Assembly: GCF_009765985.1 (NCBI RefSeq)
Contig: NZ_LMUM01000034.1
Coordinates: 221,508-285,507 of the forward strand
Direction: 5' to 3'
DNA: 64,000 nucleotides
Source of the DNA: Acidobacterium sp. S8
GTDB taxonomy: Bacteria; Acidobacteriota; Terriglobia; Terriglobales; Acidobacteriaceae
This document shows, in pieces, positions 2,434 to 64,000 of this stretch (positions are counted from its first letter, which is position 1; each line of letters opens with the position of its first letter). The position numbers were made by a program, and so were the translations under genes. The notes beneath the pieces are model-generated. The model did no database searches, was not told the origin of the DNA, and was given only the letters and a program-made list of their open reading frames with translations.

Positions 2434-2457
2434 TTCGTTAGCTGCTAGGATACTGCC

Positions 2458-5391
2458 GTGGCTTCGACATTCGACTTTCCAGTCCTGAACAATACGCAGC
2501 ATCCGCATGAGAAATTTTCCGCTTCGCATGAGCTGGAGCAGAGGCTGCGCTCGGTAGTTCGCGGCGAAGTGCGCTTCGATGCGGGCGCACGTGCCCTATA
2601 TGCGACCGATGCCTCGAACTACCGGCAGGTGCCGATTGGACTCGTCGTTCCTCTTGATGAAGAGGACGTGATTGCAGCAGTCGCTGCATGCCGTGAAATG
2701 GGTGCGCCGGTGCTGGCGCGCGGCGGCGGCACGAGCCTGGCCGGACAGTGCTGCAACGTCGCGGTGGTGCTCGATTTTTCGAAGTACATGCGGTCGATCA
2801 AGTGGCTCGATGCTGAAAAGAAGCTGGCGTATGTAGAGCCGGGGATCGTTCTCGATCGCGTGCGTGAAGCTGCCGAGGAGCATCATCTGACCTTTGCGCC
2901 TGATCCGGCAACGCATAGCCGCTGCACGCTGGGCGGCATGATCGGCAACAACTCCTGCGGCGTGCATGCGCTGATGGGCGGCAAGACGGTCGATAACATT
3001 CATTCGCTTGATATCGTTTTATATGACGGCACGCGGCTGACGGTCGGTGCGACTACCGAGGATGAGTTGCAGACGATCATCGCGGCAGGCGGGCGTCGCG
3101 GAGAAATTTATGCCGGATTGCGGAGTTTGCGCGACCGATACTCCGATCTTGTTCGGCAGCGCTTTCCGCGCATTCCGCGGCGGGTTTCCGGATATAACCT
3201 CGATGAGCTGCTGCCGGAGAATGGCTTTCATGTAGCGCGTGCGCTGGTGGGAAGTGAAGGCAGCTGCATGACGGTACTCGGCGCGACGCTGCATCTGACG
3301 GACAGTCCTCCGCATCGCCGGCTGGTAGGGCTGGGCTTTGCTGATCCATTTATTGCTGCGGATCATGTGCCCGAGGTGCTGGAGTATAGGCCAATTGGGC
3401 TCGAAGGCTTCGATGGCATGCTGGTGGATTTTATGCAGCGCAAAAAGCTGGCGGTGGATGATGTGGCGTTGCTGCCGGAGGGGCGTGGACATCTGCTGGT
3501 GGAATTTGGTGGCTGGTCGCCGGAAGATGCTGATTCCCAAGTCGAGCGTTTTGTGCAGGGAATATCGCAGACGCCTGCTTCGGTTCGCAGATACAGCAGT
3601 GAAGAGGCGCCGCGGGTGTGGCATGTACGCGAGTCGGCGCTTGGCTCAACCGTGTTTGTTCCGGGCGAGCCGCATGGATGGGAAGGTTGGGAAGACGCCG
3701 CGGTTCCGCCGGCGAAACTTGGCTCATACCTCCGCGCTCTTTTCCACCTCATGGACGAGTTTGGCTACCGTAGCCCCATGTATGGTCACTTTGGGCAGGG
3801 ATGCGTGCACATGCGCATCAACTTCGACCTCGAGAGCGAGCCGGGTATTCGCAAATTCCGCGTGTTTCTGGATCGCGCGACGGATGTGGTCATTGAGCAC
3901 GGTGGATCCCTTTCAGGCGAGCACGGGGATGGACAGGCGCGGGCTGCGTTGCTGCCGAAGATGTTCGGGCCGGAACTGATGCAGGCCTTCCGCGAATTTA
4001 AGGCACTGTGGGACCCGCTGAACAGGATGAATCCGGGCAAGCTGGTGGATCCGGTGAACGTTTATGAACCGCATGAAAACCTGCGATTAGGCGCGAACTA
4101 TGTCTCGGAAAAGACCGCGACCTATTTCCAATTTCCTGAAGATAAGGGATCGCTGGCGGAAGCTACGTTGCGCTGTGTGGGTGTGGGCGCATGCCGTAAG
4201 CAGGGCGTAGGTACGATGTGCCCCAGCTACATGGCCACGAAGGAAGAAAAACATTCGACGCGCGGGCGAGCGCATCTGCTGTGGGAGATGCTGGAAGGCA
4301 ACGTGCTGGATCGCAACTGGAATAGCGAGGCTGTGCATGAGGCGCTCGATCTGTGCCTCTCCTGCAAGGCGTGTAAAACCGAATGCCCGGTCAATGTAGA
4401 CGTAGCGACTTATAAGGCAGAGTTCCTTGCGCATTACCATGAGAAGCATCGGCACGCGCTCCGCGATTACGCATTCGCCTTCATGGATCGCTGGGCGCAT
4501 CTTGCGTCTGCGATTCCAGGCATAACAACGCGCGCGGCTAATTTGCCCCTGCAGGTTCCGGGTCTGCGCGAGATTGTGAAGCAGGTATTGGGAGTCGCAC
4601 CGCAGCGTAGCCTTCCGCGCTTTGCCGCTCGCAGCTACCAGAGCGGCGTGAGTGATCGGAATTCACGCACAGAGCAGGTTCTGCTGTGGCCGGACACATG
4701 GAACAACTATTACCATCCGCATGTTCTTGAGTCGGCGCGGCAGGTGCTTACGGATGCGGGTTTCGCGCCATACACGCCAAAGCAGCACGTCTGCTGCGGG
4801 CGGCCGCTTTATGATTTCGGATTTCTCACGGAAGCGCGCTCGTATCTCGAAAAAATTCTGCGGGACTTTGCTCCGCAGATTGAAGCAGGAACGGCCTTCA
4901 TTTTCCTTGAACCCAGTTGCGCCAGCGTCTTTCGTGATGAGCTATTAAATTTCTTTCCATCAAATGACGGCGCGAAGAGGCTAAGTAGCCAGACTTATCT
5001 GCTGAGCGAATTCCTTGTCCGCCAAGCACCTCAGTATCGGCCGCCAAGTCTCACCGGACAACGCATCGTGTTGCATGGACACTGCCACCACAAATCGCTT
5101 TTCAAGATGAAGGACGAGATTGCAATTTTGAAAGCCACAGGGGCAGACGTCCAGACGCTCGATTCCGGCTGCTGTGGCATGGCCGGACCATTTGGTTTTG
5201 AGAAAGAGAAATACGAAGTATCACAGGCGCTTGGAGAGCGTGTCCTGTTGCCTGCAGCGCGGAGCGCCTCGGATAAGACGCTGCTGGTGTCAGATGGTTT
5301 CAGCTGCCGGGAGCAGATCGCTCAGAATACAAACCGCCGTGCGCTGCACTTCGCTGAGGTGATCAGTAGTCGCCGTGGACGACATTCTTAA
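2458..5391 (+). CDS. FAD-linked oxidase fused to Fe-S/CCG domain (D-lactate or glycolate dehydrogenase type)
   Basis: This 977-residue protein joins a GlcD/DLD-type flavoprotein to a GlcF-type Fe-S subunit. FAD-binding motifs are RGGGTSLAGQC (about residue 87) and GMIGNNSCGVHAL (about 160). Two ferredoxin-like cysteine clusters follow near residues 572 (CVGVGACRKQGVGTMCP) and 633 (CLSCKACKTECP). Two CCG motifs lie near 778 (CCGRPLYDFG) and 905 (CCGMAGPFG). The family oxidises D-lactate, glycolate or longer 2-hydroxy acids at the membrane and feeds electrons to quinone. The start is GTG, as no in-frame ATG occurs before residue 80. It follows the symporter by 24 bases and overlaps the convergent dehydrogenase at its 3' end by 29 bases. 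Confidence 0.93.
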   Translation: MASTFDFPVLNNTQHPHEKFSASHELEQRLRSVVRGEVRFDAGARALYATDASNYRQVPIGLVVPLDEEDVIAAVAACREMGAPVLARGGGTSLAGQCCNVAVVLDFSKYMRSIKWLDAEKKLAYVEPGIVLDRVREAAEEHHLTFAPDPATHSRCTLGGMIGNNSCGVHALMGGKTVDNIHSLDIVLYDGTRLTVGATTEDELQTIIAAGGRRGEIYAGLRSLRDRYSDLVRQRFPRIPRRVSGYNLDELLPENGFHVARALVGSEGSCMTVLGATLHLTDSPPHRRLVGLGFADPFIAADHVPEVLEYRPIGLEGFDGMLVDFMQRKKLAVDDVALLPEGRGHLLVEFGGWSPEDADSQVERFVQGISQTPASVRRYSSEEAPRVWHVRESALGSTVFVPGEPHGWEGWEDAAVPPAKLGSYLRALFHLMDEFGYRSPMYGHFGQGCVHMRINFDLESEPGIRKFRVFLDRATDVVIEHGGSLSGEHGDGQARAALLPKMFGPELMQAFREFKALWDPLNRMNPGKLVDPVNVYEPHENLRLGANYVSEKTATYFQFPEDKGSLAEATLRCVGVGACRKQGVGTMCPSYMATKEEKHSTRGRAHLLWEMLEGNVLDRNWNSEAVHEALDLCLSCKACKTECPVNVDVATYKAEFLAHYHEKHRHALRDYAFAFMDRWAHLASAIPGITTRAANLPLQVPGLREIVKQVLGVAPQRSLPRFAARSYQSGVSDRNSRTEQVLLWPDTWNNYYHPHVLESARQVLTDAGFAPYTPKQHVCCGRPLYDFGFLTEARSYLEKILRDFAPQIEAGTAFIFLEPSCASVFRDELLNFFPSNDGAKRLSSQTYLLSEFLVRQAPQYRPPSLTGQRIVLHGHCHHKSLFKMKDEIAILKATGADVQTLDSGCCGMAGPFGFEKEKYEVSQALGERVLLPAARSASDKTLLVSDGFSCREQIAQNTNRRALHFAEVISSRRGRHS

Positions 5392-39999: not shown

Positions 40000-42327
<2,328 letters not shown>

Positions 42328-42359
42328 TCAACCAGATGAATGTAGCATTATGAAGTCAG

Positions 42360-42405
42360 ATAGTTCCAATACATAGATCGCATCCTGAGTATAGGTATCA
42401 CCTAT
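42360..42405. promoter_or_regulatory. OxyR-like binding region between katG and oxyR
   Basis: ATAGGTATCACCTAT at 42391-42405 matches the OxyR half-site pattern ATAGnTnnnAnCTAT at every fixed position and is a perfect 6+6 dyad. It overlaps the oxyR start codon. A weaker copy, ATAGTTCCAATACAT at 42360-42374 (8 of 10 fixed positions), lies upstream with centres 31 bases apart. This fits autoregulation and control of katG; binding is inferred. Confidence 0.7.
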
Positions 42406-43270
42406 GGAGTTTCACCAACTTCGTTACGTCTGTGCAATCGCCGATACAGGCAGTTTCAGCCGCGCCGCAGAACGCTGCCAGGTTGCCCAGCCCTCGCTCT
42501 CGCAACAGGTCCTCAAGCTCGAGGAAGATTTAGGAACTAAGCTCTTTGACCGCCTGGGCCGCAGCGTGCGCCTCACTGAGGCCGGTCACGCCTTTCTGCC
42601 CCACGCTCGCTCCATTCTGAGTCAGATGGAGATGGCACGATCAAACGTAGCCGATAAATGCGCGGACGTTCGCGGCAGCGTAGCCGTAGGTATTATCCCG
42701 ACCATTGCGCCCTACCTTATGCCGCGCTATACGACGGCCTTTGCGAAGAAATATGCGGAGGCGAAACTGCGCATCGTTGAAGATACAACGCCGGTCCTGG
42801 TCGAAAGCCTGCGGGACCTGTCGATCGATCTGGCGATTCTTGCCCTCCCTCTGCGTCACAAAGACCTGGAGCTATTTCCTCTTCGCACCGAACCGCTATT
42901 CGCCGTGCTACCCAGAAATCATCCCCTTGCCGCAGCCGAATCACTTGCCCTCAAAGATCTCCGCGGAGAGTCCTTCGTCATGCTGCGCGACGGCCACTGT
43001 TTCCGTGACCTCAGCCTCGCCGCCTGCACGCATGCCCGCGTGACGCCGCGCATCGCGTTTGAAAGCGGCCAGTTCAGCAGCCTCTTTGGAATGGTTGCCG
43101 CCGGCGTCGGCATCTCGCTCGTTCCTGAGATGGCCATAGACCGGAACGCTGGCTGCCGCTATGTACGTCTCAGCGATGCGCGAGCAACGCGCACCATCGT
43201 CGCCGCTGTTCTACGTGGACGCAGCTTCAACCGCGTCCAGCAGGCCTTTTTGTCAGGGATCAAAAACTAG
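42404..43270 (+). CDS. oxyR: Peroxide-sensing LysR regulator OxyR
   Basis: A 288-residue LysR-type regulator. The N-terminal helix-turn-helix is typical (FSRAAERCQVAQPSLSQQVL). The effector domain has the peroxide-sensing pair in DGHCFRDLSLAAC: the cysteines fall at residues 199 and 208, the same numbers as in Escherichia coli OxyR. The protein forms a disulfide with peroxide and activates katG and other genes. It is divergent from katG with an OxyR-like box at its own start. No clear ribosome site precedes ATG at 42404, which lies inside the box. Confidence 0.96.
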   Translation: MEFHQLRYVCAIADTGSFSRAAERCQVAQPSLSQQVLKLEEDLGTKLFDRLGRSVRLTEAGHAFLPHARSILSQMEMARSNVADKCADVRGSVAVGIIPTIAPYLMPRYTTAFAKKYAEAKLRIVEDTTPVLVESLRDLSIDLAILALPLRHKDLELFPLRTEPLFAVLPRNHPLAAAESLALKDLRGESFVMLRDGHCFRDLSLAACTHARVTPRIAFESGQFSSLFGMVAAGVGISLVPEMAIDRNAGCRYVRLSDARATRTIVAAVLRGRSFNRVQQAFLSGIKN

Positions 43271-51886: not shown

Positions 51887-52394
51887 GCCGTTCTGCTCCT
51901 TTTGTCTTTGAAACACGGGACAAACAACTGAGTGGCTGACGAGTGGATATTCCCAGTGGCTATAATTATCCCGCATTATTGGGAGCAATGATCAGCGGAC
52001 TGAAGCAGGCCTCGTGATCTTAATGCCTGGGCTTTGGTCCAAGCGCTTGCAGATGTTTTAAGGTAAGCCGCGAATTTCTCACGAACGAATGCCGGCCGTT
52101 CATATTGGCAAATGTATGAATCGGACTTGTTCATAGTCCCATTCATATTTGTTTTGCGCGGATATAAGAGAGTTTAATGGCGCACAGAAATTTCGACGTA
52201 TCCAGCAACAAACGTCTTGACGCGGTCGTCCGGCTGCTCGATAACTGAACCAACTCAATTTTGCACTTCGCCTTTTAGGCCTGCCGAGGTAGTTCCCAGC
52301 CTCAGGCAGAAGGCGCCCTTCTACAGTCATCGTGCGTAGTATTTTAGTACCTCGCAGCCCTATATACCGTTCCGCTTTTTTGGAGGCATTTCAA
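51887..52394. other. Gap between poxB and copper amine oxidase
   Basis: About 508 bases without a convincing gene; it must hold the divergent promoters for poxB and the amine oxidase. Four TTCATA motifs lie close together at 52099-52104, 52130-52135 and 52142-52147, with one inverted copy at 52115-52120. The first and inverted copies form an arm pair, TTCATA-N10-TATGAA, that looks like an operator. A 23-codon frame at 52177 and an upstream frame at 52332 (GTG) are not convincing as gene starts. Confidence 0.5.
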
Positions 52395-54398
52395 GTGGGC
52401 CATCGTCTCTCTGTCGTTTTGTCATTCTTTTTTTGCAGTCTGGTCAGCAGTTTTGCACTGCCGCCGAGCGTTCATCATCCTTTGGACGCACTTACTCCCG
52501 ATGAATACTGGACGGCTTACAGAGTGCTCCGTGCCGCCGGCCATGTTGAGGAATCGACAGCGTTTGCCAGCGTACTTTTTCATGAGCCGCCCAAGGACCA
52601 GGTCCTGGCATGGAAGACGGGAGATCCGATTTCACGTAAAGCCGATGTTGTTCTTTTCGACAAGGGCCACTCTTATGCTGCGCTCGTCGATATCAGCGGC
52701 GAGAAGCTTGAAAGCTTCACCGAGTTAAAAGGTGTGCAGGCGCCTTTTACGGATGATGAGCGACATGGGGTGGAAGATGCGATCAAGCACGATCCGCGTG
52801 TTGTAGAAGCGCTGAAGAAGCGCGGCATTACTGACCTGAAAGTGGTGACCTGTTATGCCGTTCCTGCGGGCTTTGTAGATTTACCTGAGCAGAAGGACGG
52901 CAAGCGCCTGGGATGGGGCGGTTGTATGGACGCGGAAGGCGCCACCGGTATGTGGGACCGTGAAATAGGCGGAATCTTTTTTACCGTAGACATGAACGCG
53001 AAGAAAATTATCCGCTTCAACGATTATGGCGCAGTGCCTATGCCGCCGCCTTCCAATAATTATGACGCAGACGGCGGCCCTGCGCTGCCAGGTACACAGC
53101 CCATCATCGTCTCGCAGCCCGGCGGGCCAAGCTTCACCATCAAGGATGGAGAAGTGAGCTGGCAAAACTGGCGCTTCCGCTTCCGTCTCGATCCGCGTAT
53201 CGGAACGGTGATCAATCTCGCGTCTATCAATGATGGCGGCAAGCTGCGTTCGGTGATGTATGAGGGCTCGCTCTCGGAGCTATACGTTCCGTACCAGGAC
53301 CCGGAAGAGACGTGGAACTCGCATGTTTTCATCGATGCGGGCGAATATTTTACTTACGACGGCATCGGTACCATCAAGCCGCTACTTGCAGGCGTTGACT
53401 GCCCGTCGTATGCGAGCTTCTTCAGCGGCGTGTTTTATAACACGAGCGGCCATCCGGTTCTTCGACCGCAGATGGCATGCATGTTCGAGCGCACGATTGG
53501 CGATCCGGCGTGGCGTCATGGCGACGAGGCCGGAGTCTCCGGCAGACCGTCGCGCGAACTTGTGCTGCGCACGGTAGCAGTGGTGGGGAATTATGACTAC
53601 CTGCTTGACTGGCGGTTCGAGCAGACGGGTACCATTCGCGTGGCCGTGGGCGCCACGGGAGTTCTTGAAGTAAAGCCCGTGAAAGAAAAGACTGTCGATG
53701 GTCCCATGTCCGATGACCTGATGGCAAAGGATGAAAAGGGCAATCCGGTTGAATTCGGCCAACTGGTTGCGCCGGGAGTGGATGGTGTCGATCACGATCA
53801 TTTCTTCAGCTTCCGACTTGATCTCGACGTGGATGGGCCCAAGAACTCGTTCATGGCTGACAAGCTGGTGCAATACCAGCTGCCAAAGGACAATCCGAGC
53901 CCACGCCGCGTGATATGGGCGATGCAGCCGACGATGGTGAAAACAGAAGGCGATGCCATGCAGGATCTCGACCTGCATCATCCTACGATGTGGCGTTTTG
54001 TAAGCCAGGATATGCACGATCCATACGGCTATCCAACAAGCTTCGAGATCATGCCGGGAGAAACAGCAGCTTCTCTATTGCCTGATAGTGAGTGGCCGCA
54101 ACGTCGCGCCGGTTTCTCATCGCATCAGCTCTGGGTCACACCATACGATCCGTCGGAGTTCTATGCTGCCGGCACCTACGTTGCGAACAGTAAAGATAAG
54201 GATGGGCTCCCCGCGTGGGTGAAGCAGAATCGCAGCATCGAAAATACCGATATCGTTGCCTGGTATACGGTTGGTTTCCACCATGTCCCGCGTCCAGAAG
54301 ACTGGCCACAGATGCCTGTGATGTGGCATGACTTCGATATTCGTCCATTCCATTTCTTCCCAAAGAATCCGGGAATGGATTTACCTATGACGCCGTAA
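52395..54398 (+). CDS. Exported copper amine oxidase
   Basis: A 667-residue copper/topaquinone amine oxidase. GTG at 52395 with GGAGG eight bases upstream gives a signal peptide (MGHRLSVVLSFFFCSLVSSF). The TPQ precursor is Tyr400 in VGNYDYLLDW. The catalytic base is Asp314 in VFIDAGEYFTYDG. Copper ligands are His467 and His469 (DHDHFFSF) and His630 (FHHVPRPEDWP). It oxidises primary amines to aldehydes with release of ammonia and peroxide, here outside the cytoplasm. A terminator hairpin overlaps its stop. A frame starting 21 codons earlier would hide the leader and has no ribosome site. Confidence 0.95.
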   Translation: MGHRLSVVLSFFFCSLVSSFALPPSVHHPLDALTPDEYWTAYRVLRAAGHVEESTAFASVLFHEPPKDQVLAWKTGDPISRKADVVLFDKGHSYAALVDISGEKLESFTELKGVQAPFTDDERHGVEDAIKHDPRVVEALKKRGITDLKVVTCYAVPAGFVDLPEQKDGKRLGWGGCMDAEGATGMWDREIGGIFFTVDMNAKKIIRFNDYGAVPMPPPSNNYDADGGPALPGTQPIIVSQPGGPSFTIKDGEVSWQNWRFRFRLDPRIGTVINLASINDGGKLRSVMYEGSLSELYVPYQDPEETWNSHVFIDAGEYFTYDGIGTIKPLLAGVDCPSYASFFSGVFYNTSGHPVLRPQMACMFERTIGDPAWRHGDEAGVSGRPSRELVLRTVAVVGNYDYLLDWRFEQTGTIRVAVGATGVLEVKPVKEKTVDGPMSDDLMAKDEKGNPVEFGQLVAPGVDGVDHDHFFSFRLDLDVDGPKNSFMADKLVQYQLPKDNPSPRRVIWAMQPTMVKTEGDAMQDLDLHHPTMWRFVSQDMHDPYGYPTSFEIMPGETAASLLPDSEWPQRRAGFSSHQLWVTPYDPSEFYAAGTYVANSKDKDGLPAWVKQNRSIENTDIVAWYTVGFHHVPRPEDWPQMPVMWHDFDIRPFHFFPKNPGMDLPMTP

Positions 54399-54409
54399 CA
54401 ATACGGCGT
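54390..54409 (+). terminator. Hairpin terminator overlapping amine oxidase stop
   Basis: ACGCCGTA (54390-54397) pairs perfectly with TACGGCGT (54402-54409) around ACAA; the TAA stop at 54396-54398 lies in the stem-loop. Only TT follows, so it is a short weak terminator or processing stem. It separates the oxidase from the TonB receptor gene by about 115 bases. Confidence 0.55.
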
Positions 54410-54523
54410 TTGAAGTGAAGTAAAGCCGCAGAGGTTCGCGGCCTCGCTCGTCATATTTTTACGAAACGGCGGTCCAGCTGAGCAGCTTGGGGCCAGTACT
54501 CTACGTGTCTCTTGAGGTGCATC

Positions 54524-57500
54524 ATGGTGAAGCTCCTTCTATCGTTTACGCGTAATGTTGTGGCCCGGGATTATCGCCCGATTCTTTATTTAACGCTTGC
54601 AGCCAGCATGGGATCACTGCCGATACATTCACAATCTACTTTTGGCTCGATTGTCGGCACCATAAGAGATTCATCAAACGCGGTGGTAAGCGGAGCCTCG
54701 GTCAATCTAACCAACACCGAAACTGCAATCTCACGCGATACCACGACGAACCAAAGCGGAGATTACAGTTTCACAAATCTAAATCCGGGCAAATATGAGG
54801 TTCACATTGTCGCTTCGGGATTTGAAAAGGTTGAATTCTTTAATCTCGATCTGCAATCGCGAGAGACCAAGCGCGTCGATGCTGCATTAAAAATTGGAAA
54901 AGCTTCCGACACCATCACCGTGCAGGGCGCGTCGGCAGGCGTAATTACAACCGAGGTATCGAATCTTTCTGAAACGAAGACGGGGCGGGAGCTGACGGAG
55001 TTGCCCGTGGCTGTCTATTCAAGATCGACCGGCTCTACGAGCCCGATTACCACGCTGACAACCGAGCCGGGCGTTCAGATCGATGACAACTCCAACATAA
55101 TGGTGGATGGGACAACGCCGGCCCTCATGTCTTACACCATCGATGGAATCAGCAGCGTATCAGTTGAAAACAGCGGTCCCATCAACGAGCTTTTTCCTTC
55201 ATTCAACTCCATTTCTGAAATTCGTATCAGCGGAAGCAACAATAGCGCCGAGTTCAGCGGCGTTGCTGATGTGACTACGACGTCGAAAAGCGGGACGAAT
55301 GAATTTCACGGCGGGGTTTTCGAAAACTTTGAGAATACCGTTCTCACGGCTGGCGATCCCTTCACGCACTCGACACCTAAGCTCATCATGAATGACTTTG
55401 GAGGATTTCTTGGTGGTCCGGTCAGCATTCCAAAGTTGTATAGCGGGCAGAATAAGTTCTTTTTCTTCATGAGTTATGAGGGGCTTCGTCTGCCCCGCGA
55501 AGTACCGCTTATCACCAGCGTTCCATCAGAGGACATGCGCAACGGCAACCTTGTGGATTATCTAAGTGGAACACCTATCTATTATCCCGATGGCAGTCCC
55601 ATCGACCCGGCAAATGTTCCTATCTCGCAGGTTTCCGCGAATATGATGAAGTACTTTATTCCGCATGAGAATATCGGCGATCCGTCGTCTTACCAGAAAA
55701 ACTATCGCGTGAATTATCCAGCGCCTATCTCCAGCGATCAGGCCGATCTTCGGTTGGACTATGTGCTGACTCCCAAGCAATCCATGTTTGCGCGAGGAAC
55801 CTACAAGACGCGGTATGTGGTGACACCGCCAGATCCTAACTGCACGGGTTTTTGTGTCAACGCAGGATCGCCAATTACCGGCGCATTTGCGCAGCCGGAA
55901 ACCGATCAAGGCGTGACCTTCTCGTACAACTACGCCATCACTTCTTCGCTCGTAAACGAATTGCGCGCAGGTTTTAATGGAACGCACTTTGCTACCGTGA
56001 TGCAGCAGGGCACGTCCGCCGGGTACCTCGACCAATCTGGCATTGAGGGGATTCAACAGCCCGATCCCGTACCGCAGGTTCCCAACGCAATCATCACCGG
56101 TTTTATGTGGACCGGGGGTGGCAATCCCTCGGTACAGCACAGTAATATCGTGCAGCTTATTGACAACGTGACCTGGAACAAGGGAGGGCACACATTCAAA
56201 TTCGGGGCCGATATCCGCCGGATGACCGATCACGATGACAACGTCTTCGGCAATCTTCAGTCGGGCTGGTACGTGTTCGACAACTCACAAACCGCCTTTA
56301 CGGATGCAGGCGGAAATCCCGTAAGCATCGGCGACCCATTCACCGGATTTTTGCTCGGCTATCCTGACTACACAGTTCTTGCGGAGCAGGTGAATCACCC
56401 TGCCATGAATGGTCTCGGCTACGGCTACGGATTTTTTGCCCAGGATGATTGGAAGATCACGCCGCGGCTGACATTGAACATTGGTCTGCGCTACGAACTG
56501 CATCCGCCCCTCAAGGACACGAAATACAACACCGCTGCTTTCCTGCCCGACTACAACCAGGACGGAGTAGCGGGAGCCGTGGCCGTACCCAATGAGCAGG
56601 CCTTAGGTTATACCTCTTCGTATTTTGCTGAATCGATTTCGCCCTCTCCCATCCTCACTGCCAAGCAGGCAGGCATTCCCGAGACGCTTCGCTACACCTA
56701 CAAAAAAGATTTTGGACCACGCATCGGTTTTGCCTGGCGGCCACATGGCGATGACAAGATGGTGCTGCGCGGTGGTTGGGGACGCTTTATCGAACAGCCG
56801 CTCGGCTTCTCGCTAGTCTCCGGATGGGCCGTGCATTCGAGCTTCGTCAACTACTCCTATCAAAGCGTTGATGCGAATGGGAATCCAACGATTTCGTTCC
56901 CGGCCCCTTTTTCTTCCACAATTACGTCCGGAGGGGCATCGTTTCAATATGCTTTTCCAGTTCACTATATCGATCCCTCCGTGCAGCAGTGGAATCTCAC
57001 TCTGGAGCAGGACCTCGGTGCCGGCATCGGCATGCGCCTCTCCTATATCGGAAGCCACGGTGGAAATCTCGAAACCTTCGTCGATGTGAATCAGGTGCCT
57101 GCCAACACGATCGGCTGGAACTCAGCGTTTCCGCAGTACGCCCCCTTTCAAAGCTGGGGCTATATCCAGAGCGTTGTGAATGGCGCCGAGAGCAATTACA
57201 ACAGCATGAGTGTGGCTGCAACCAAACGCTTCGTGAATGGACTGCAATTTCAGGCGAGTTACGTTTGGACGCGTGATTTGTCGGATGCAGGTGGATACGC
57301 GCCCTCCGGAGTTACCACCGAAGGCGGCAGCATTTCTTCTGATCGTTTTCATATCGGACGCGACTATGGCAATGCGTCTTTCGATCGACGCCATCGCTTT
57401 CTTACAACGTTTCTCTATGAGCTGCCTTTCGGTAAAGGCAAGCAGTTTTTCTATAACAGTGGATTGTTGAACGAGTTGGCCGGCGGGTGCCAGCTTGGAG

Positions 57501-57976
57501 GCGTAGTCGTTCTACAGAGTGGAGCCTTCCTGACTCCTTATCAAACATCGACCGATCCGGCAGGCACGAACATGCTTTCGAACGTGGGCGCCACTCGAGC
57601 CGACGTTGTACCGAACACTGCTGCTTATGTGCGCCATATGTCGACAGGCGGAGGCGATCCGGTCTATCTGAATTCGGATGCTTTCACAGATCCGCCTAAT
57701 AATAGCGGCGGATTCGGCAATGCTGGCGTCGGCAACTTCGCCGGCCCTGGAACTGAAGCGGTTTCGCTTTCGCTGATCAAGAAGACCACGATTCGCGAAG
57801 GAACGGCTTTATATTTTGGCGCGGAGGCATCGAACCTCCTCAACCATCGGAACTACGATATTCCCGATATGAACGTGGACGACGGTCCCGGGGCATTTGG
57901 AGTAATCACCGCGCTTCAATCTGCGGAGGGAGCCGGCCCCCGCAACATTGAGCTGACAGCGCGAATTACTTTCTAA
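54524..57976 (+). CDS. TonB-dependent receptor with N-terminal carboxypeptidase-regulatory domain (Oar-like)
   Basis: A 1150-residue outer-membrane protein. ATG at 54524 with GAGG six bases upstream; an N-terminal signal peptide is followed by a CarboxypepD-regulatory beta-sandwich (STFGSIVGTIRDSSNAVVSG onward, to about residue 125). Then comes a plug domain, including IMVDGTTPALMSYTIDGISS and the SGTNEFHGGVF loop near 255, and a long 22-strand barrel ending in the terminal aromatic of ELTARITF. Such Oar-like receptors carry large or polymeric substrates; the cargo is unknown. Its place after the amine oxidase suggests that it imports products or polyamine-like ligands, by inference only. Confidence 0.94.
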   Translation: MVKLLLSFTRNVVARDYRPILYLTLAASMGSLPIHSQSTFGSIVGTIRDSSNAVVSGASVNLTNTETAISRDTTTNQSGDYSFTNLNPGKYEVHIVASGFEKVEFFNLDLQSRETKRVDAALKIGKASDTITVQGASAGVITTEVSNLSETKTGRELTELPVAVYSRSTGSTSPITTLTTEPGVQIDDNSNIMVDGTTPALMSYTIDGISSVSVENSGPINELFPSFNSISEIRISGSNNSAEFSGVADVTTTSKSGTNEFHGGVFENFENTVLTAGDPFTHSTPKLIMNDFGGFLGGPVSIPKLYSGQNKFFFFMSYEGLRLPREVPLITSVPSEDMRNGNLVDYLSGTPIYYPDGSPIDPANVPISQVSANMMKYFIPHENIGDPSSYQKNYRVNYPAPISSDQADLRLDYVLTPKQSMFARGTYKTRYVVTPPDPNCTGFCVNAGSPITGAFAQPETDQGVTFSYNYAITSSLVNELRAGFNGTHFATVMQQGTSAGYLDQSGIEGIQQPDPVPQVPNAIITGFMWTGGGNPSVQHSNIVQLIDNVTWNKGGHTFKFGADIRRMTDHDDNVFGNLQSGWYVFDNSQTAFTDAGGNPVSIGDPFTGFLLGYPDYTVLAEQVNHPAMNGLGYGYGFFAQDDWKITPRLTLNIGLRYELHPPLKDTKYNTAAFLPDYNQDGVAGAVAVPNEQALGYTSSYFAESISPSPILTAKQAGIPETLRYTYKKDFGPRIGFAWRPHGDDKMVLRGGWGRFIEQPLGFSLVSGWAVHSSFVNYSYQSVDANGNPTISFPAPFSSTITSGGASFQYAFPVHYIDPSVQQWNLTLEQDLGAGIGMRLSYIGSHGGNLETFVDVNQVPANTIGWNSAFPQYAPFQSWGYIQSVVNGAESNYNSMSVAATKRFVNGLQFQASYVWTRDLSDAGGYAPSGVTTEGGSISSDRFHIGRDYGNASFDRRHRFLTTFLYELPFGKGKQFFYNSGLLNELAGGCQLGGVVVLQSGAFLTPYQTSTDPAGTNMLSNVGATRADVVPNTAAYVRHMSTGGGDPVYLNSDAFTDPPNNSGGFGNAGVGNFAGPGTEAVSLSLIKKTTIREGTALYFGAEASNLLNHRNYDIPDMNVDDGPGAFGVITALQSAEGAGPRNIELTARITF

Positions 57977-58027
57977 GCAAGCAGCGAGCAGAAATCAGTT
58001 TTTGTCGTAGTGCGGGAAGTGTTGCGA

Positions 58028-58993
58028 TCAGGCGTGTGGCTGGCTACTGAGTCGTGGCTGCCATCCGTATGCGGCAATTGAATTACGCCAAAAGAATTTC
58101 TCCTGAGCAGTCATGGTTTTTGTGTTCATAAACTTCTGAACGAGGCCCAGCGTGTCTGCATAAGTCGCTAAATGGTCGCCGTTAGGCCAATCGCTGCCGA
58201 ATAGCAGGCGATCCTCGCCGAATGTATCCCACAGCATATCCAGCTTCTCTTTGTAGAGAGCCAGATTGAGCGAGGTCTGCCCATTTAACTGCTTCGGAAT
58301 TTCCGAGAGCTTAGCGAAGACATTCGGCGCACTTCGGAGGGTTTCAAGATGAGCCGCGAACGTCTTTTGAGATGAGGCATCGGCGGGTATTTGCGCATTG
58401 GGCAGATGATCGATAACGATCTTAGCTGCCGGAATTTTGTCTTTAATTCGGAAGAGAGCGGAAATCAGTTCCATGTCTGGATTCGCACTTTCAAAGACAA
58501 GATGAGTTTCGCTCAACAGCTTCAGATCTTCGAGAAATCCCGGCTTGTTCATGTCCTCCGACAAATTCCGATTCCAAAGATTGCCATAGCGAATTCCTTT
58601 AAAGAGCGGATTTGCGCTGAGGCGATCGATATTCTTTCCAAACGACACGCTGCCCGGAACCAGATCACCGATGATACCGACGATGATCGGGTCGCTCTCA
58701 GCGATTTGAAGAAGCCAATCGTTATCACTTTCCCATGGACTACATTCGATGGCAATGGCTCCGCAGATGCCTAGACCTCGAGTGACATTTTTGTAGCGAC
58801 CGGGCAGCGATGGTTTATACAGAACCGTATCTGTCGCTGGCGGCCAGGGCACTCCCTGCGGCCGTGTCGGATCGAAAAGATGTATATGTGCGTCGAGGAT
58901 CGGGATGTTCTTCGTTGTGTCCGCCTGCACTTGTTTTGTAAGGGCCGTCAGCAGAGTAGCTGCGGCTGATTTCAAGACATCTCTTCGCTTCAA
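58028..58993 (-). CDS. Exported amidohydrolase (2-pyrone dicarboxylate lactonase-like)
   Basis: A 321-residue amidohydrolase-2 family protein. The leader is MKRRDVLKSAAATLLTAL, Tat-like, if TTG at 58993 is used, with AGGTGA just upstream; a TTG at 59038 is an alternative. The metal-binding HIH motif is in ILDAHIHLFDPTRP (about residues 35-40). The catalytic Asp lies in LLFGSDWPNGDHLATY near 270, and IVIDHLPNAQIP holds the middle ligand. The family hydrolyses lactones or similar ring compounds. It is encoded opposite the TonB receptor and faces it, 51 bases apart; a role in the exported oxidative block is possible. Confidence 0.9.
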   Translation of the reverse strand: MKRRDVLKSAAATLLTALTKQVQADTTKNIPILDAHIHLFDPTRPQGVPWPPATDTVLYKPSLPGRYKNVTRGLGICGAIAIECSPWESDNDWLLQIAESDPIIVGIIGDLVPGSVSFGKNIDRLSANPLFKGIRYGNLWNRNLSEDMNKPGFLEDLKLLSETHLVFESANPDMELISALFRIKDKIPAAKIVIDHLPNAQIPADASSQKTFAAHLETLRSAPNVFAKLSEIPKQLNGQTSLNLALYKEKLDMLWDTFGEDRLLFGSDWPNGDHLATYADTLGLVQKFMNTKTMTAQEKFFWRNSIAAYGWQPRLSSQPHA

Positions 58994-59038
58994 TCGATCA
59001 CCTGCCGATATATGGTTTTGAAAATAGGCACCAGCCAA

Positions 59039-59537
59039 TAATATTCAAGCCGACCCTGCGGGTCACATTGGCGAATGTGCCATTATGGTTATTGCGGTAG
59101 AGATGGCTTTTTTGGCTGAGGCTCCGAAAAGATTCTCCCATCCGTAGCTTTGCCGTTGGCCAGGAAATATCGGGCCATCGCCGCGATCGTAATCGATGAT
59201 GCCGGCTCGGCTTCAGGTCATTTCAATGATGTATTTCTTTGTGCCGGCTTTTCCCGAAGCAGCAGCCATCCGTTTCATTTCTGACCGCCTGTATGAGGTG
59301 ACGATTATCTAGCCGGAGAGCGCTGAAAGCCACGCCGGCTATAGGTCTGCGGCTTCCAGATCACCTTCGATCAACCGCTTTTCGGGTGAAAAGCTACGTC
59401 CCGGATTCATGATACGCGCTCATTGTGGGAAAATGGGCGAGACTAGAAATCCAGCTTTTCTGCGCCACAGAATTTTGGGGATGTGGTCATAAAGGGTGCA
59501 TATCTCAATACTTCAATCACAGGGTTCACGAGTCCAT
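59039..59537. other. Gap before the PQQ-type dehydrogenase, with degraded coding traces
   Basis: About 500 bases with no intact gene. On the minus strand short coding-like stretches broken by stops occur between about 59100 and 59320 (for example ITIAAMARYFLANGKATDG ending near 59095 and an upstream frame ending GTKKYIIEMT). They may be remnants of a decayed gene, but I cannot name it. The promoter of the PQQ-type gene should lie in the last 150 bases. Confidence 0.4.
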
Positions 59538-61079
59538 ATGAAGTTTTTAAAAGTAGCGTTTGCTGTTCTGACGGGCGTGTTCGTTTGCGGCGGTTCTTCT
59601 CTGGTTGCACAGAATGTCGATGCAACGATGCTGCTCAAGCCGCCTGCTGATAGCTGGCCAAGCTATCATGGTGACTATTCTGGTCGTCGCCATAGCAAGT
59701 TGGCACAGATCACTCCGCAAAACGTAGATGGACTGACACTTGGATGGGCATTCCAGACGAATCAGACAGCGACGATCAAGTCTTCGCCCATATTGGTCGA
59801 TGGGGTGTTGTATTTTACCGTGCCGGATAACGTCTGGGCAGTCGATGCCCGTTCTGGCCATATGCTATGGCACTATACCTATCCGCCGAACAACGGTGAC
59901 CACATCGGACAGCGCGGCGTTGCCATATACAAGGACTGGGTGTTCTTTACGTCGCCGGATGCGCACCTGATTTCGCTGAATGCGAAAGATGGAAGCGTGC
60001 GTTGGATCGTGGAGATCGCTGACGTAGAGAAGGGATACTGGGCGACCATGGCCCCCCTCGTTGTCGGCAATCACGTGATTATTGGGGTGGGCGGCGACCT
60101 CGATAACCTGCAAACCTTTATCCGATCGGTTGATCCGGAGACAGGTAAAACGCAATGGCAATGGGATGTCACTCCTCCTGCCGGCACTCCGCATACTGCG
60201 ACCGGCGGCACCACGTGGATGGCCGGGACCTACGATCCTGATCTTCACCTCATTTACTGGGGAACAGGGAATCCAACGCCTGTCCTTAATGGAACCGTGC
60301 GTCCAGGAGACAATCTCTACACCTGCAGCATCGTTGCTCTCGATCCTGATACTGGAAAGCTCGTATGGGCTTTTCAGCCATCGCCGCACGATACCCACGA
60401 TTGGGATGCAGTCGAAATTCCAGTGCTTGTGGATGGAGTTTTTCACGGCCAGCACCGAAAGATGCTGATGCAGGCCTCTCGGAACGGGTATTTCTTTGTG
60501 CTCGATCGCACCAATGGGAAGAGCTTGTTAACTGCGCCCTTCGGGCCGGTGAACTGGGCATCGAGTGTGGATAAGGAAGGCCGCCCCATTCCCGATCCCG
60601 CAAAAGAACCAGCGCCTGATGGCCGACTTATCGCGCCTGACGAGGGTGGCCTTACGAATTTTCGATCGCCCAGTTTTGATCCGAATACTGGCCTGTTTAT
60701 TGTCGATGCTCATCCGAGCTGGAGTATCTATTTCGCCAAACCGGCTGATGGCACTTATGGATGGGCAGGTGCCGATTACGGCGTGTGGGGTAAGGGAGTC
60801 ATCGAAGCTATTGACTATCAAACCGGAAAAATTCGTTGGAGCCATGAGGTAGGTCCGGGAGGAGCAGGTTCGGGAGTTTTAACGACGGATTCCGGACTGA
60901 CCTTTACAGGTGACGCTCATGGAAACTTTCTGGCGCTGGATACAAATAACGGCAAAACGCTATGGCATGCGGGATCGGGAGGCAATATAGCCAGTTCTCC
61001 GATCTCTTATGAACTCGACGGAAAACAGTATGTCCTGACCAGCGGAGGCGGCGTCTTGTTCGCCTGGAGACTGCCTTAG
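59538..61079 (+). CDS. Exported PQQ-dependent dehydrogenase-like beta-propeller protein
   Basis: A 513-residue protein with a signal peptide (MKFLKVAFAVLTGVFVCGGS). The body is an eight-bladed quinoprotein propeller with W-motif-like repeats (LDPDTGKLVWAF, IDYQTGKIRWSHE, LDTNNGKTLWHAG). PQQ/Ca2+ site features include Asn in WGTGNPTP and Asp in DTHDWDAVEIPV (about residues 245-295). The glutamate of alcohol dehydrogenases appears to be replaced in GVGGDLDNLQTF, and no vicinal CysCys is seen. It may oxidise alcohols or sugars, or be a non-catalytic relative. No cytochrome partner gene is adjacent. ATG at 59538 is chosen over a start 14 codons upstream. Confidence 0.88.
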   Translation: MKFLKVAFAVLTGVFVCGGSSLVAQNVDATMLLKPPADSWPSYHGDYSGRRHSKLAQITPQNVDGLTLGWAFQTNQTATIKSSPILVDGVLYFTVPDNVWAVDARSGHMLWHYTYPPNNGDHIGQRGVAIYKDWVFFTSPDAHLISLNAKDGSVRWIVEIADVEKGYWATMAPLVVGNHVIIGVGGDLDNLQTFIRSVDPETGKTQWQWDVTPPAGTPHTATGGTTWMAGTYDPDLHLIYWGTGNPTPVLNGTVRPGDNLYTCSIVALDPDTGKLVWAFQPSPHDTHDWDAVEIPVLVDGVFHGQHRKMLMQASRNGYFFVLDRTNGKSLLTAPFGPVNWASSVDKEGRPIPDPAKEPAPDGRLIAPDEGGLTNFRSPSFDPNTGLFIVDAHPSWSIYFAKPADGTYGWAGADYGVWGKGVIEAIDYQTGKIRWSHEVGPGGAGSGVLTTDSGLTFTGDAHGNFLALDTNNGKTLWHAGSGGNIASSPISYELDGKQYVLTSGGGVLFAWRLP

Positions 61080-61094: not shown

Positions 61095-62444
61095 TCAAAT
61101 TACCAGAGACAAAGCGACTGTAAGAAGCAGAGCGACAACCGAGATAATCGTCTCGCAAACGGACCATGTTTTGATGGTTTGAGCGACGCTCATGTTGAAG
61201 TATTCTTTGACGAGCCAGAAGCCGCCATCGTTGACGTGCGAAAAAATTAAAGAGCCAGCGCCAGTTGCAATTGCCAGCAGCTCAGGATGAACTCCGGTGC
61301 TGTGCAGCGCGATAGGAGCGATGATGCCAGCGGCGGTCGTCATGGCCACCGTCGCAGATCCTGTTGCCAGTCGCATTAGTGCAGCAAGCAGCCACGCCAG
61401 CAGGAGCAGCGGGATGTGGCTGTGCAGCGCGACGACGATAATCGCCTTGGAGACGCCGCTATCCTGCAGAATGCGTCCAAACCCTCCGCCCGCGCCCACC
61501 AGAAGCGTGATGCTTGCCGTGGGAGCCAGGCATTCATTGCTGAACCGCAGAATTGTGTCACGGGTAAAGCCGCTTAATTTGCCAAGTGTGAAGAAGCTGA
61601 AGAGTACGCCGATCAGCAATGCCATATCGTCGTTGCCTATAAAGTGCAGGCTCTCATTCATCATGTTGCCCGGCCTAGATATCGCGTCTGCCCAGCTTCC
61701 GATAAGCATCAGGAGAACCGGCAAGAGGATCGTAAGCAGCGTAAGCGAGAAGGTCGGCAGCTTGCGGTTCGGATCCGGGTCTGCGAATTCCGCGGCCATC
61801 GGGTTATCTGCAGCCAGGGTGACATGCGGAGCGATGAGCTTCGCATAAAAGGGACCAGCGATGATCGCCGTAGGAAGGCCGATCAGCAACGCGTAAAAGA
61901 TGGTGCGACCCACATCTGCTTTATAGATCGTTGCTGCCATCAGGGCCGCTGGATGCGGAGGCACCAATCCATGAACAACGGAAAGCCCGGCTACCATGGG
62001 CAGTCCCACCAGGATCAACGAAGTCCTGGTTCGCCGGGCTACCGTAAACGCGATTGGAATCAGCAGTACGAAGCCAACTTCAAAGAAAGCGGGCAGGCCA
62101 ACTAACAGCCCGATCACAACCATGGCCCAATGAATGTTCTTCTCTCCGAAAATCCGGATGAGAGTATACGCAATTTGATCTGCACCGCCTGATTCGGCCA
62201 TCATTTTGCCGAGCATGGTTCCCAGCGCCACCACGATCGCTATATGTCCCAGCGTTCCACCGACTCCGGTTTCAAACGAGTGCACGATGGTGCTGAAGGG
62301 CATTCCGGTAACAACAGCGAGCGACAGCGCAGCAAGAAACAGGCTGATGAAAGGATTCAGCTTGAAGATGGTGATCAGCAAAATCAGTCCGACAACGGAA
62401 ACTGAAGCCGCGACAAGCAGAAAAATGTTGTGATGATCGATCAT
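61095..62444 (-). CDS. GntP-family permease
   Basis: A 449-residue inner-membrane transporter with about 12 spans, of the gluconate:proton symporter family. It has the family regions VALGTMLGKMMAESGGADQI, LIPIAFTVARRTRTSLILVG and FLLLAWLLAALMRLATGSAT-like stretches near the C-terminus. GntP members import gluconate, fructuronate or D-serine. It is the last gene of a run with RidA (54-base gap) and a D-aminoacylase, which suggests D-serine, D-amino acids or their N-acyl forms as cargo; the substrate is inferred. Confidence 0.93.
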   Translation of the reverse strand: MIDHHNIFLLVAASVSVVGLILLITIFKLNPFISLFLAALSLAVVTGMPFSTIVHSFETGVGGTLGHIAIVVALGTMLGKMMAESGGADQIAYTLIRIFGEKNIHWAMVVIGLLVGLPAFFEVGFVLLIPIAFTVARRTRTSLILVGLPMVAGLSVVHGLVPPHPAALMAATIYKADVGRTIFYALLIGLPTAIIAGPFYAKLIAPHVTLAADNPMAAEFADPDPNRKLPTFSLTLLTILLPVLLMLIGSWADAISRPGNMMNESLHFIGNDDMALLIGVLFSFFTLGKLSGFTRDTILRFSNECLAPTASITLLVGAGGGFGRILQDSGVSKAIIVVALHSHIPLLLLAWLLAALMRLATGSATVAMTTAAGIIAPIALHSTGVHPELLAIATGAGSLIFSHVNDGGFWLVKEYFNMSVAQTIKTWSVCETIISVVALLLTVALSLVI

Positions 62445-62498
62445 AGACGCACTAGTAGCGCTGCTCCAGTCACTTCTTCGTTGTGCTCAGATTAAAAA

Positions 62499-62891
62499 TT
62501 ACTCATTCGCAGACTTGTAGGCGACGCAGTCAATCTCAACTTTGCAATCTACAACCATGCTTGATACTACGCAGGCGCGGGCAGGCGGATGTTCACCGAA
62601 ATATTCTTTGAAAACAGTGTTGAATGAGGAGAAGTCACGCGGATCATCAAGCCACACACCGCAACGCACTACATGCTCCGGCCCATATCCGGCCTCTTTA
62701 AGAATCGCCAGAAGATTGCGAATTGCCTGATGAGATTGAGCGACGATGTTGCCTGCGACTACTTCGCCGTTGATCATGGGAATCTGACCCGAAACATAGA
62801 GCCAGCCATTGGCTTCTACTGCTCGCGCAAATGGAAGATGCTGCCCGCCTGTACCTTTGCCGCCTTCTACGCCATACCGCTTAATGCTCAT
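62499..62891 (-). CDS. RidA-family enamine/imine deaminase
   Basis: A 130-residue RidA (YjgF/YER057c/UK114) protein. It has the strand-turn motif YVSGQIPMINGEVVAGNI and the active-site Arg in PPARACVVSSMVVD near residue 104. The family forms a trimer and hydrolyses reactive 2-aminoacrylate and related imines from pyridoxal-dependent dehydratases. ATG with GGAGCAG upstream. It is between a D-aminoacylase (28 bases) and a GntP permease, where it would handle enamine products of D-amino acid breakdown. Confidence 0.95.
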   Translation of the reverse strand: MSIKRYGVEGGKGTGGQHLPFARAVEANGWLYVSGQIPMINGEVVAGNIVAQSHQAIRNLLAILKEAGYGPEHVVRCGVWLDDPRDFSSFNTVFKEYFGEHPPARACVVSSMVVDCKVEIDCVAYKSANE

Positions 62892-62919
62892 CCGCTGCTC
62901 CTCACCTTACTTTTTGGGG

Positions 62920-64000
62920 TTACTGAATCCACTTTGTTTTCCCTCGAGAGAGAAACCGTCCGCCACGTTTTTCTGTCGCTCCGTGAGCGGTATAAGAAAG
63001 AATGCCATTGACCCACACGCCTGCAATGCCTTCGGCGGGTTGCATGGGATCAGAAAATGTAGCTGTGTCGATGATTCTCTCCGCATCGAAGAGCGCGAGG
63101 TCAGCAAAATAACCTTTACGTATCATTCCTCGCTCAGCGAGCCCGAAGCGTTGAGCCGGCATGCCTGTCATCTTATGAACTGCCTCCGGCAGCGAAAACA
63201 ATTTCTCGTCCCGGCTGTAGCGGCCCAGCACACGCGGAAAGGTGCCCCATAGGCGTGGATGCGGAAGAGGATCGTTGGGTAGGCCATCTGAGCCAATCAT
63301 GGTCGCTGGATGTCGCAGAATCCTGCGCATATCTTCTTCAGAGATGCTGTGATAGATAGCGCCAGCAGGTTGCAATTGCCGCGCCGCCTCCAGTTGCTTA
63401 ACGCCCCAAAGCGCCGCAATTTGGGCAAGTGTGTGCCCGGCAATCTCAGGATGTGGCATGCTCCAGGTGATGGTGATCTTGACGCGCTCGTCTACCTGCC
63501 GCAGATCAAGCGTGCTCGAACCAGCCGCGTAGGGATAGCAATCGCAGCCTGCATATTGTTCGGTTCGCGCCGTTTCCAGGGTGCGCAGAACTTCCTCACT
63601 TCGTCCCCAGTTGTTTATTCCGGCGCACTTCAAGTGAGAAATGATGACAGGCACATGGCTTAATCGCCCAATCTCGAATGCTTCCTGCATCGCATCGAGA
63701 ATTGTTTCGGTTTCAGAGCGCATGTGCGTTGTATATACAGCGCCTGCGGCTGCAAGTGGCGTTGCCAGGCTCAACACTTCTTCAGTAGAGGCGGAGTAGG
63801 CCGAGAGGTAAGCGAGTCCGGAGCTAAGACCTAACGCTCCGTTGTCCAGCGCTTCCTTCAGTTGCTCGCGCATCGCATCGATTTCCACTTCTGTAGCGAA
63901 GCGGTCGAGCCGATCCATGTGGTTATTGCGCAAAGCCGTATGCCCGACAAGCGCACCTACATTTACTGCTGGACTGGCGGCTTGAATGGCCGCGACATAT
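62920..64000 (-). CDS. N-acyl-D-amino-acid deacylase (5' part outside window)
   Basis: Partial amidohydrolase-family gene running off the right edge; its 3' end is complete. About 359 residues are visible. They include metal-ligand and catalytic motifs of D-aminoacylases: His in YTTHMRSETETILDAM, VPVIISHLKCAG, the Asp in TMIGSDGLPNDPLPHPRLWG, and the C-terminal FLSRGKTKWIQ. The enzyme removes the acyl group from N-acyl-D-amino acids, yielding a D-amino acid and a fatty or acetic acid. It starts a run with RidA and a GntP permease, which looks like a small D-amino-acid catabolic operon. Confidence 0.94.
   Translation of the reverse strand, partial: YVAAIQAASPAVNVGALVGHTALRNNHMDRLDRFATEVEIDAMREQLKEALDNGALGLSSGLAYLSAYSASTEEVLSLATPLAAAGAVYTTHMRSETETILDAMQEAFEIGRLSHVPVIISHLKCAGINNWGRSEEVLRTLETARTEQYAGCDCYPYAAGSSTLDLRQVDERVKITITWSMPHPEIAGHTLAQIAALWGVKQLEAARQLQPAGAIYHSISEEDMRRILRHPATMIGSDGLPNDPLPHPRLWGTFPRVLGRYSRDEKLFSLPEAVHKMTGMPAQRFGLAERGMIRKGYFADLALFDAERIIDTATFSDPMQPAEGIAGVWVNGILSYTAHGATEKRGGRFLSRGKTKWIQ

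Follow-up and report, generated by a model that had tools for sequence, protein, structure and literature searches.

The reaction of a copper amine oxidase yields hydrogen peroxide. The quinohemoprotein amine dehydrogenase (Qhp) is a respiratory, heme-bearing complex without copper that feeds periplasmic carriers, and the periplasm is where it would be expected to remain; the qhp operon is not known to include an Oar-like neighbour. In Myxococcus xanthus, the Oar receptor is reported to be required for secretion of the protease PopC (PMC6434023). No ligand was named for any acidobacterial Oar-like receptor in the titles and abstract openings searched, where we also found nothing joining Oar-like, Acidobacteria and TonB. 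Here, we describe a locus of Acidobacterium sp. S8 in which a copper amine oxidase (CAO) gene and an Oar-like outer-membrane receptor (OAR) gene are paired on one strand, an arrangement conserved in relatives. The locus lies in a window of 64,000 nucleotides (contig NZ_LMUM01000034.1, positions 221,508 to 285,507) of a 5.4-Mb genome assembled in 38 contigs.

The first-pass annotation of this window had grouped CAO and OAR with an amidohydrolase and a pyrroloquinoline quinone (PQQ)-type propeller protein, as exported proteins encoded in a neighbourhood that is not a single operon, which might oxidise amines or alcohols outside the cell and take up the products. All four genes were found as open reading frames standing together on both strands, and the proteins appear to be exported as judged from N-termini read by eye. 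The start previously assigned to CAO was the in-frame GTG at 52395; a longer frame opens at GTG 52332. The features are as follows:

52332..54398, + strand: CAO, a copper amine oxidase with topaquinone (TPQ), predicted to be Sec-exported; 688 amino acids from GTG 52332, alternative start GTG 52395
54399..54523, + strand: gap between CAO and OAR, with short hairpins and a ribosome-binding-like GAGGTG ahead of ATG 54524
54524..57976, + strand: OAR, an Oar-like outer-membrane receptor with CarboxypepD_reg and an OMP_b-brl_4 barrel; 1150 amino acids
58028..59038, - strand: Amidohydro_2 protein, fuconolactonase-like, with a twin-arginine-like start; bystander
59496..61079, + strand: EQ, an empty quinoprotein of TIGR04528 group A (778.7 against 650 bits); bystander

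CAO matched the Pfam family Cu_amine_oxid at 6.9e-124 and solved copper amine oxidase structures at 2e-105. Across 41 aligned CAOs, window included, the TPQ tyrosine (Tyr421, in an NYD/E motif) and the copper ligands His488 and His490 were present in every row. The base Asp335 was kept in 40 rows and was Glu in the remaining one, and the third copper ligand, His651, was found in 39, with a gap in the other two. The window protein has the TPQ tyrosine, all three copper histidines and the base aspartate, as the first-pass annotation had reported. By domains and by these residues, CAO thus resembles the primary-amine oxidases of the TynA/AGAO type. However, it falls under both NCBIfam primary-amine oxidase cut-offs (570.9 against 651 and 390.9 against 1278), and differs further from that type in being coupled to an Oar-like receptor. 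All the named near relatives of CAO come from Acidobacteria and include those of Granulicella aggregans and Acidipila sp. EB88.

OAR has a CarboxypepD_reg domain followed by an OMP_b-brl_4 barrel (the two Pfam matches being at 2.8e-191 and 1e-19); the match to the Plug domain was weak and under the cut-off (E 0.078). CarboxypepD_reg and OMP_b-brl_4 agree with the earlier description as Oar-like. The size, described as very large, proved ordinary, with 67 OMP_b-brl_4 matches in the same genome, most of them in reading frames some 1,090-1,285 amino acids long. Comparison of an OAR alignment with solved structures returned five short, weak matches (best E 0.0059, a scaffoldin), an AlphaFold model from an eight-sequence alignment had a mean predicted local distance difference test (pLDDT) score of 29.5, and a search of plasmids recovered receptors of 24-28% identity only. 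The probable start of OAR is ATG 54524 (frame 54512-57976), preceded by the GAGGTG, and a scan of the 54399..54523 gap reported no terminator-like site.

The pairing of the two genes was examined across the family in 398 genomes, among them the own genome, with at most two candidates scored per genome, so that copy numbers are lower bounds. The CAO search gave 43 matches in 34 genomes; four fragments were set aside (two in G141, one each in G434 and G276), and neighbourhoods were taken around 40 CAO places. Seventeen CAOs, window included, were close (at least 61% identity over most of the length), and 14 of these (the window and L055-L067) had an orthologous OAR of 54-67% identity downstream on the same strand. 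This OAR was found downstream of none of 17 distant CAOs of 45-55% identity with downstream sequence and none of six at 32-33% (CAO of L083 has no downstream sequence at all). By manual count, the immediate flanks of the pair fell into eight distinct contexts: the window; L055, with LpxC and RND genes; L056, L057, L058, L061, L062 and L067, which have MFS, ASPIC or two-component genes in common; L059; L060 with L065; L063; L064, with a peptidase M1; and L066. Since the 14 linkages span eight different immediate neighbourhoods, the pair has outlived rearrangement. CAO and OAR distances over the 13 complete pairs were correlated (r 0.92; none of 10,000 permutations equally high), an agreement that shared descent alone gives and that is no proof of co-evolution.

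Other genes were seen beside CAO in some relatives. The distant CAOs of L072-L075 close a gene row that also holds an Oar-like receptor, peptidases of the M20 and S58 families and an SSF symporter (in L074, the M20 peptidase is on the other strand or unclustered), a gene row that suggests peptide-derived amines. A further group (L076, L078, L080, L081 and L084, and partly L077 and L079) has SIS-domain, sugar transporter and ROK neighbours and resembles an amino-sugar cluster. Upstream of CAO in genome G001, L002 encodes at 2336-3661 a regulator-like protein without a Pfam match; it is related (25-28%) to one (c25) that is divergent from OAR in the CAO-free loci L133, L134 and L135.

The search for OAR (E up to 1e-180, same 398 genomes) gave 41 matches in 40 genomes, and flanks were examined for 40 of these, the match on the 3.1-kb contig of G403 being left out. 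OAR adjoined an intact CAO in 13 cases, a broken CAO in one (L136, where only remains of CAO and OAR persist, both genes broken), qhp genes in seven and neither in 19. A FastTree phylogeny of 67 rows, with local support values and no bootstrap, was built from 32 OARs, 29 paralogs of the own genome (out of 66 further OMP_b-brl_4 matches) and six Oar-like rows of relatives; L057, cut by a contig end, was too short to be placed. The 32 OARs formed a single clade (support 100) separate from the 35 other Oar-like rows. Every CAO-linked row sits in a subclade of 25, mixed with CAO-free rows, among which L136 was classed despite its broken CAO. Seven CAO-free rows of this subclade form a clade of their own, all from genus g9 (analysis label), to which G366, with a CAO-OAR pair (L064), also belongs. 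The CAO-free loci L126, L130 and L131 have retained c3 and c5, the upstream genes enclosing CAO-OAR in L056, L058 and L062; loss or gain of CAO therefore took place at a fixed position, and OAR remained. In 19 OAR stretches searched for CAO remnants upstream of a CAO-free OAR, the only one found was that of L136. CAO is absent from the other subclade (L137-L143).

Receptors of this second subclade adjoin a different amine-oxidising system. Seven of eight loci with CAO-free receptors of this side (L137-L142 and L278, not L143) had qhp genes beside OAR; L278 is outside the tree and was placed by its higher score to the L137 receptor, and L138 and L139 are near-copies. In L137, L142 and L278, qhpA (cut in L137 and L142), D, B, F, E and G stand beside OAR. 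L141 has A, D, B, F and E there, G being at the far end; in L140, G, E and F are accompanied by a partial B, and L138 and L139 have G only. In the three loci scanned, QhpD scored 585, 601 and 624 bits against a cut-off of 453, and QhpE scored 177.8 and 165.8 above and 162.7 below a cut-off of 165. A QH_alpha match reached 501 against 274, with a cut copy at 139. In L137, L141 and L142, qhpD and qhpB are separated by a small reading frame whose product resembles the gamma subunit bearing cysteine tryptophylquinone (CTQ). The qhp operon itself is absent from the window; its subunits and maturation proteins adjoin sister receptors of OAR. The two systems were mutually exclusive beside OAR, with a qhp match in none of the 40 CAO stretches and CAO in none of the seven qhp loci or the eight loci of qhp-side receptors. 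Thus, one receptor clade is associated with two amine-oxidising systems.

We propose that CAO and OAR constitute a two-gene module in which OAR imports an amine-bearing compound and CAO deaminates it, with qhp replacing CAO in the sister lineage, a proposal that could equally well prove right or wrong. The two genes would be transcribed together. OAR, as a receptor of the Oar/TonB-dependent type, would take up a compound that porins do not serve because of its size or scarcity; CAO, as an exported TPQ copper enzyme, would oxidatively deaminate its primary amine in the periplasm, releasing aldehyde, ammonia and hydrogen peroxide; and in the sister lineage the CTQ quinohemoprotein amine dehydrogenase would do the job of CAO. 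CAO and the qhp enzyme have no common ancestry and the same reaction type, and the need that they share is a primary-amine substrate. Import of an amine-bearing compound is favoured because two unrelated quinone-cofactor amine enzymes share one receptor lineage. Of the amine oxidation with uptake suggested by the first-pass annotation, a role for the pair alone thus stands, and OAR more likely takes up the substrate than the small products. If the tie holds, it provides a testable ligand class for one of dozens of acidobacterial Oar-like receptors.

Several observations weigh against this proposal. Neither CAO nor qhp genes adjoin OAR in 19 of the 40 cases (L125-L135, L143, L274-L277 and L279-L281, some at contig ends), and the receptor is therefore either useful without an adjacent amine oxidase or losing its partner. 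OAR works without CAO, while a close CAO is seldom without OAR: the three exceptions among 17 comprise the second copies of G399 and G335 (L068 and L069; CAO of L068 was hidden by the open reading frame caller and recovered by tblastn) and G001, where CAO is split over two contigs (L002 and L011). Few gains suffice for the linkage to CAO, which therefore does not represent many independent events. On the qhp side, QH_beta matches of 70 and 77 bits fell under the cut-off of 223, and QhpG-like matches of 55-83 under that of 240. The few gains and the 19 receptors with neither enzyme could also be read as an inherited neighbourhood without functional coupling, the tie to qhp being coincidental as well in a family that has dozens of paralogs in each genome, as the 67 matches in the own genome and the seven g9 genomes that retain OAR without CAO would allow. 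We consider coincidence rather unlikely, though a reading to be taken seriously, since the pair persists through eight changes of immediate flanks and in seven of eight loci, two of them near-copies, this small clade adjoins another amine-oxidising operon.

By analogy with M. xanthus, OAR might instead export CAO across the outer membrane. OAR resembles M. xanthus Oar in receptor type, by naming only, and differs from it in the import proposed here as against PopC secretion (PMC6434023). Direct adjacency of CAO and OAR would suit export, which we nonetheless judge improbable: many genomes keep OAR without CAO. Moreover, amine import is favoured over enzyme export because, in the sister lineage, the qhp enzyme feeds periplasmic carriers and would be expected to stay in that compartment. 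It is similarly favoured over a supply of copper to CAO through OAR because the qhp enzyme has no copper, yet its operon adjoins sister receptors; copper supply is very improbable, even though CAO requires the metal and, in G001, the end of CAO is followed by a gene for a Cu/Zn superoxide dismutase.

The amidohydrolase and EQ are real genes of the window, and they do not belong to one system with CAO and OAR. Neither adjoined CAO in any of the 40 stretches taken from relatives, and neither the amidohydrolase nor the GntP gene that follows in the window was beside EQ in any of the relatives' EQ loci. The four-protein amine- or alcohol-oxidising system of the first-pass annotation, which had the closeness of the genes in its favour, was rejected on these neighbourhoods; with the genes also on both strands, we give it next to no credence. 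As a cluster, then, only the CAO-OAR pair is kept in relatives, with the amidohydrolase and EQ occurring apart from it. The amidohydrolase is a separate neighbour and bystander. Its Amidohydro_2 domain and KRRDVLK twin-arginine-like start agree with the earlier prediction of a Tat-type protein; the nearest model is L-fuconolactonase, far under the cut-off (97.2 against 400).

EQ is likewise a separate neighbour of the pair, an unexplained type of quinoprotein on which we found no literature by the name acido-empty-quinoprotein. It passed the NCBIfam model of group A, TIGR04528, and fell under the PQQ alcohol dehydrogenase model TIGR03075 (386.3 against 480.05). The earlier label of PQQ-type protein thus holds for the fold, but not for this score or for the missing vicinal Cys-Cys pair. 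Thirty-six distinct group-A rows were aligned (one duplicate and one low-identity row dropped), with 32 Cys-Cys rows as control. None of the 36 had the Cys-Cys pair or a Glu in the column of the metal-ligand Glu, and the adjacent Asp201 was present in all. Arg140, Asp201, Trp241, Asn259, Asp299, Asp302, Asp304, Arg329 and Asn388 were invariant, against 15% invariant columns overall. By analogy with PQQ enzymes, Trp241, Asn259, Asp302, Asp304 and Arg329 would supply the Trp under the ring, the Asn and Asp at the metal, the catalytic Asp and the Arg. A standard PQQ enzyme was ruled out by model scores and residues.

EQ also fits group A in its host: in a search limited to PqqC and PqqE among Pqq proteins, the own genome gave matches only far below cut-off. 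Among 100 genomes, own included, group A was over cut-off in 28 (62 rows) and PqqC in 14; both occurred together only in G016, with about four such genomes expected under independence. The window also bears on the role of quinoproteins in bacteria without PQQ synthesis. Cys-Cys proteins were also found in genomes without PqqC over cut-off, so that scavenged PQQ may serve the Cys-Cys class; in Acidobacteria, the importer PqqU is reported from Vicinamibacteria only (PMC12124388). The only TIGR03075 match of the own genome at E up to 1e-135, L014, likewise lacks Cys-Cys. It belongs to a second quinoprotein group (L014 [G000:C15], L176, L237, L241, L242, L244 and L245), from genomes with and without PqqC, in which residues of the Asp-Ala or Ala-Ala type replace Cys-Cys and the metal Glu has become Asp.

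The context of EQ was examined around 20 of the 62 over-cut-off matches, mainly the closest, and at one locus, the best, in each genome with a match over cut-off; EQ of L221 and L223, hidden by the open reading frame caller, was recovered by tblastn. At 23 of 29 group-A loci (the best per genome and both own copies), a frame with at least two CXXCH motifs lay directly upstream on the same strand. The other six were L161 and L166 (tandem EQs), L157 (a contig edge that holds the start of a multiheme cytochrome gene upstream of EQ), the window copy, L154 and L164. Among the 20 longer stretches, a multiheme cytochrome was upstream in 17 of the 19 with upstream sequence, and a laccase-like multicopper oxidase preceded the cytochrome in five. 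The second EQ copy of the own genome (L222) has the complete set of usual neighbours, including the only close cytochrome of that genome (480 bits; next 60 bits). The EQ of the window is therefore a paralog that lacks the usual partner, and it shows no tie to CAO. The name "empty" may mislead, as the group keeps metal and catalytic residues and usually has a multiheme cytochrome c upstream. Tentatively, and with more doubt than confidence, we suggest for Acidobacteria both a dedicated amine import through one receptor lineage with a swapped TPQ oxidase or CTQ dehydrogenase, and "empty" quinoproteins that would be metal-dependent redox enzymes with a non-standard cofactor, passing electrons to multiheme cytochrome c.

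Two further gene groups were noted. A KatG-like haem peroxidase gene with a divergent LysR-type regulator lies at 40003-43270 of the window, about 9 kb from CAO, and the same arrangement occurs at 14110-17470 of L063, about 2 kb from CAO. Beyond EQ, a GntP-type permease, a RidA-like protein and an N-acyl-D-amino-acid-deacylase-like amidohydrolase are encoded in series on the - strand (61095-63933), a series that resembles a D-amino-acid operon.

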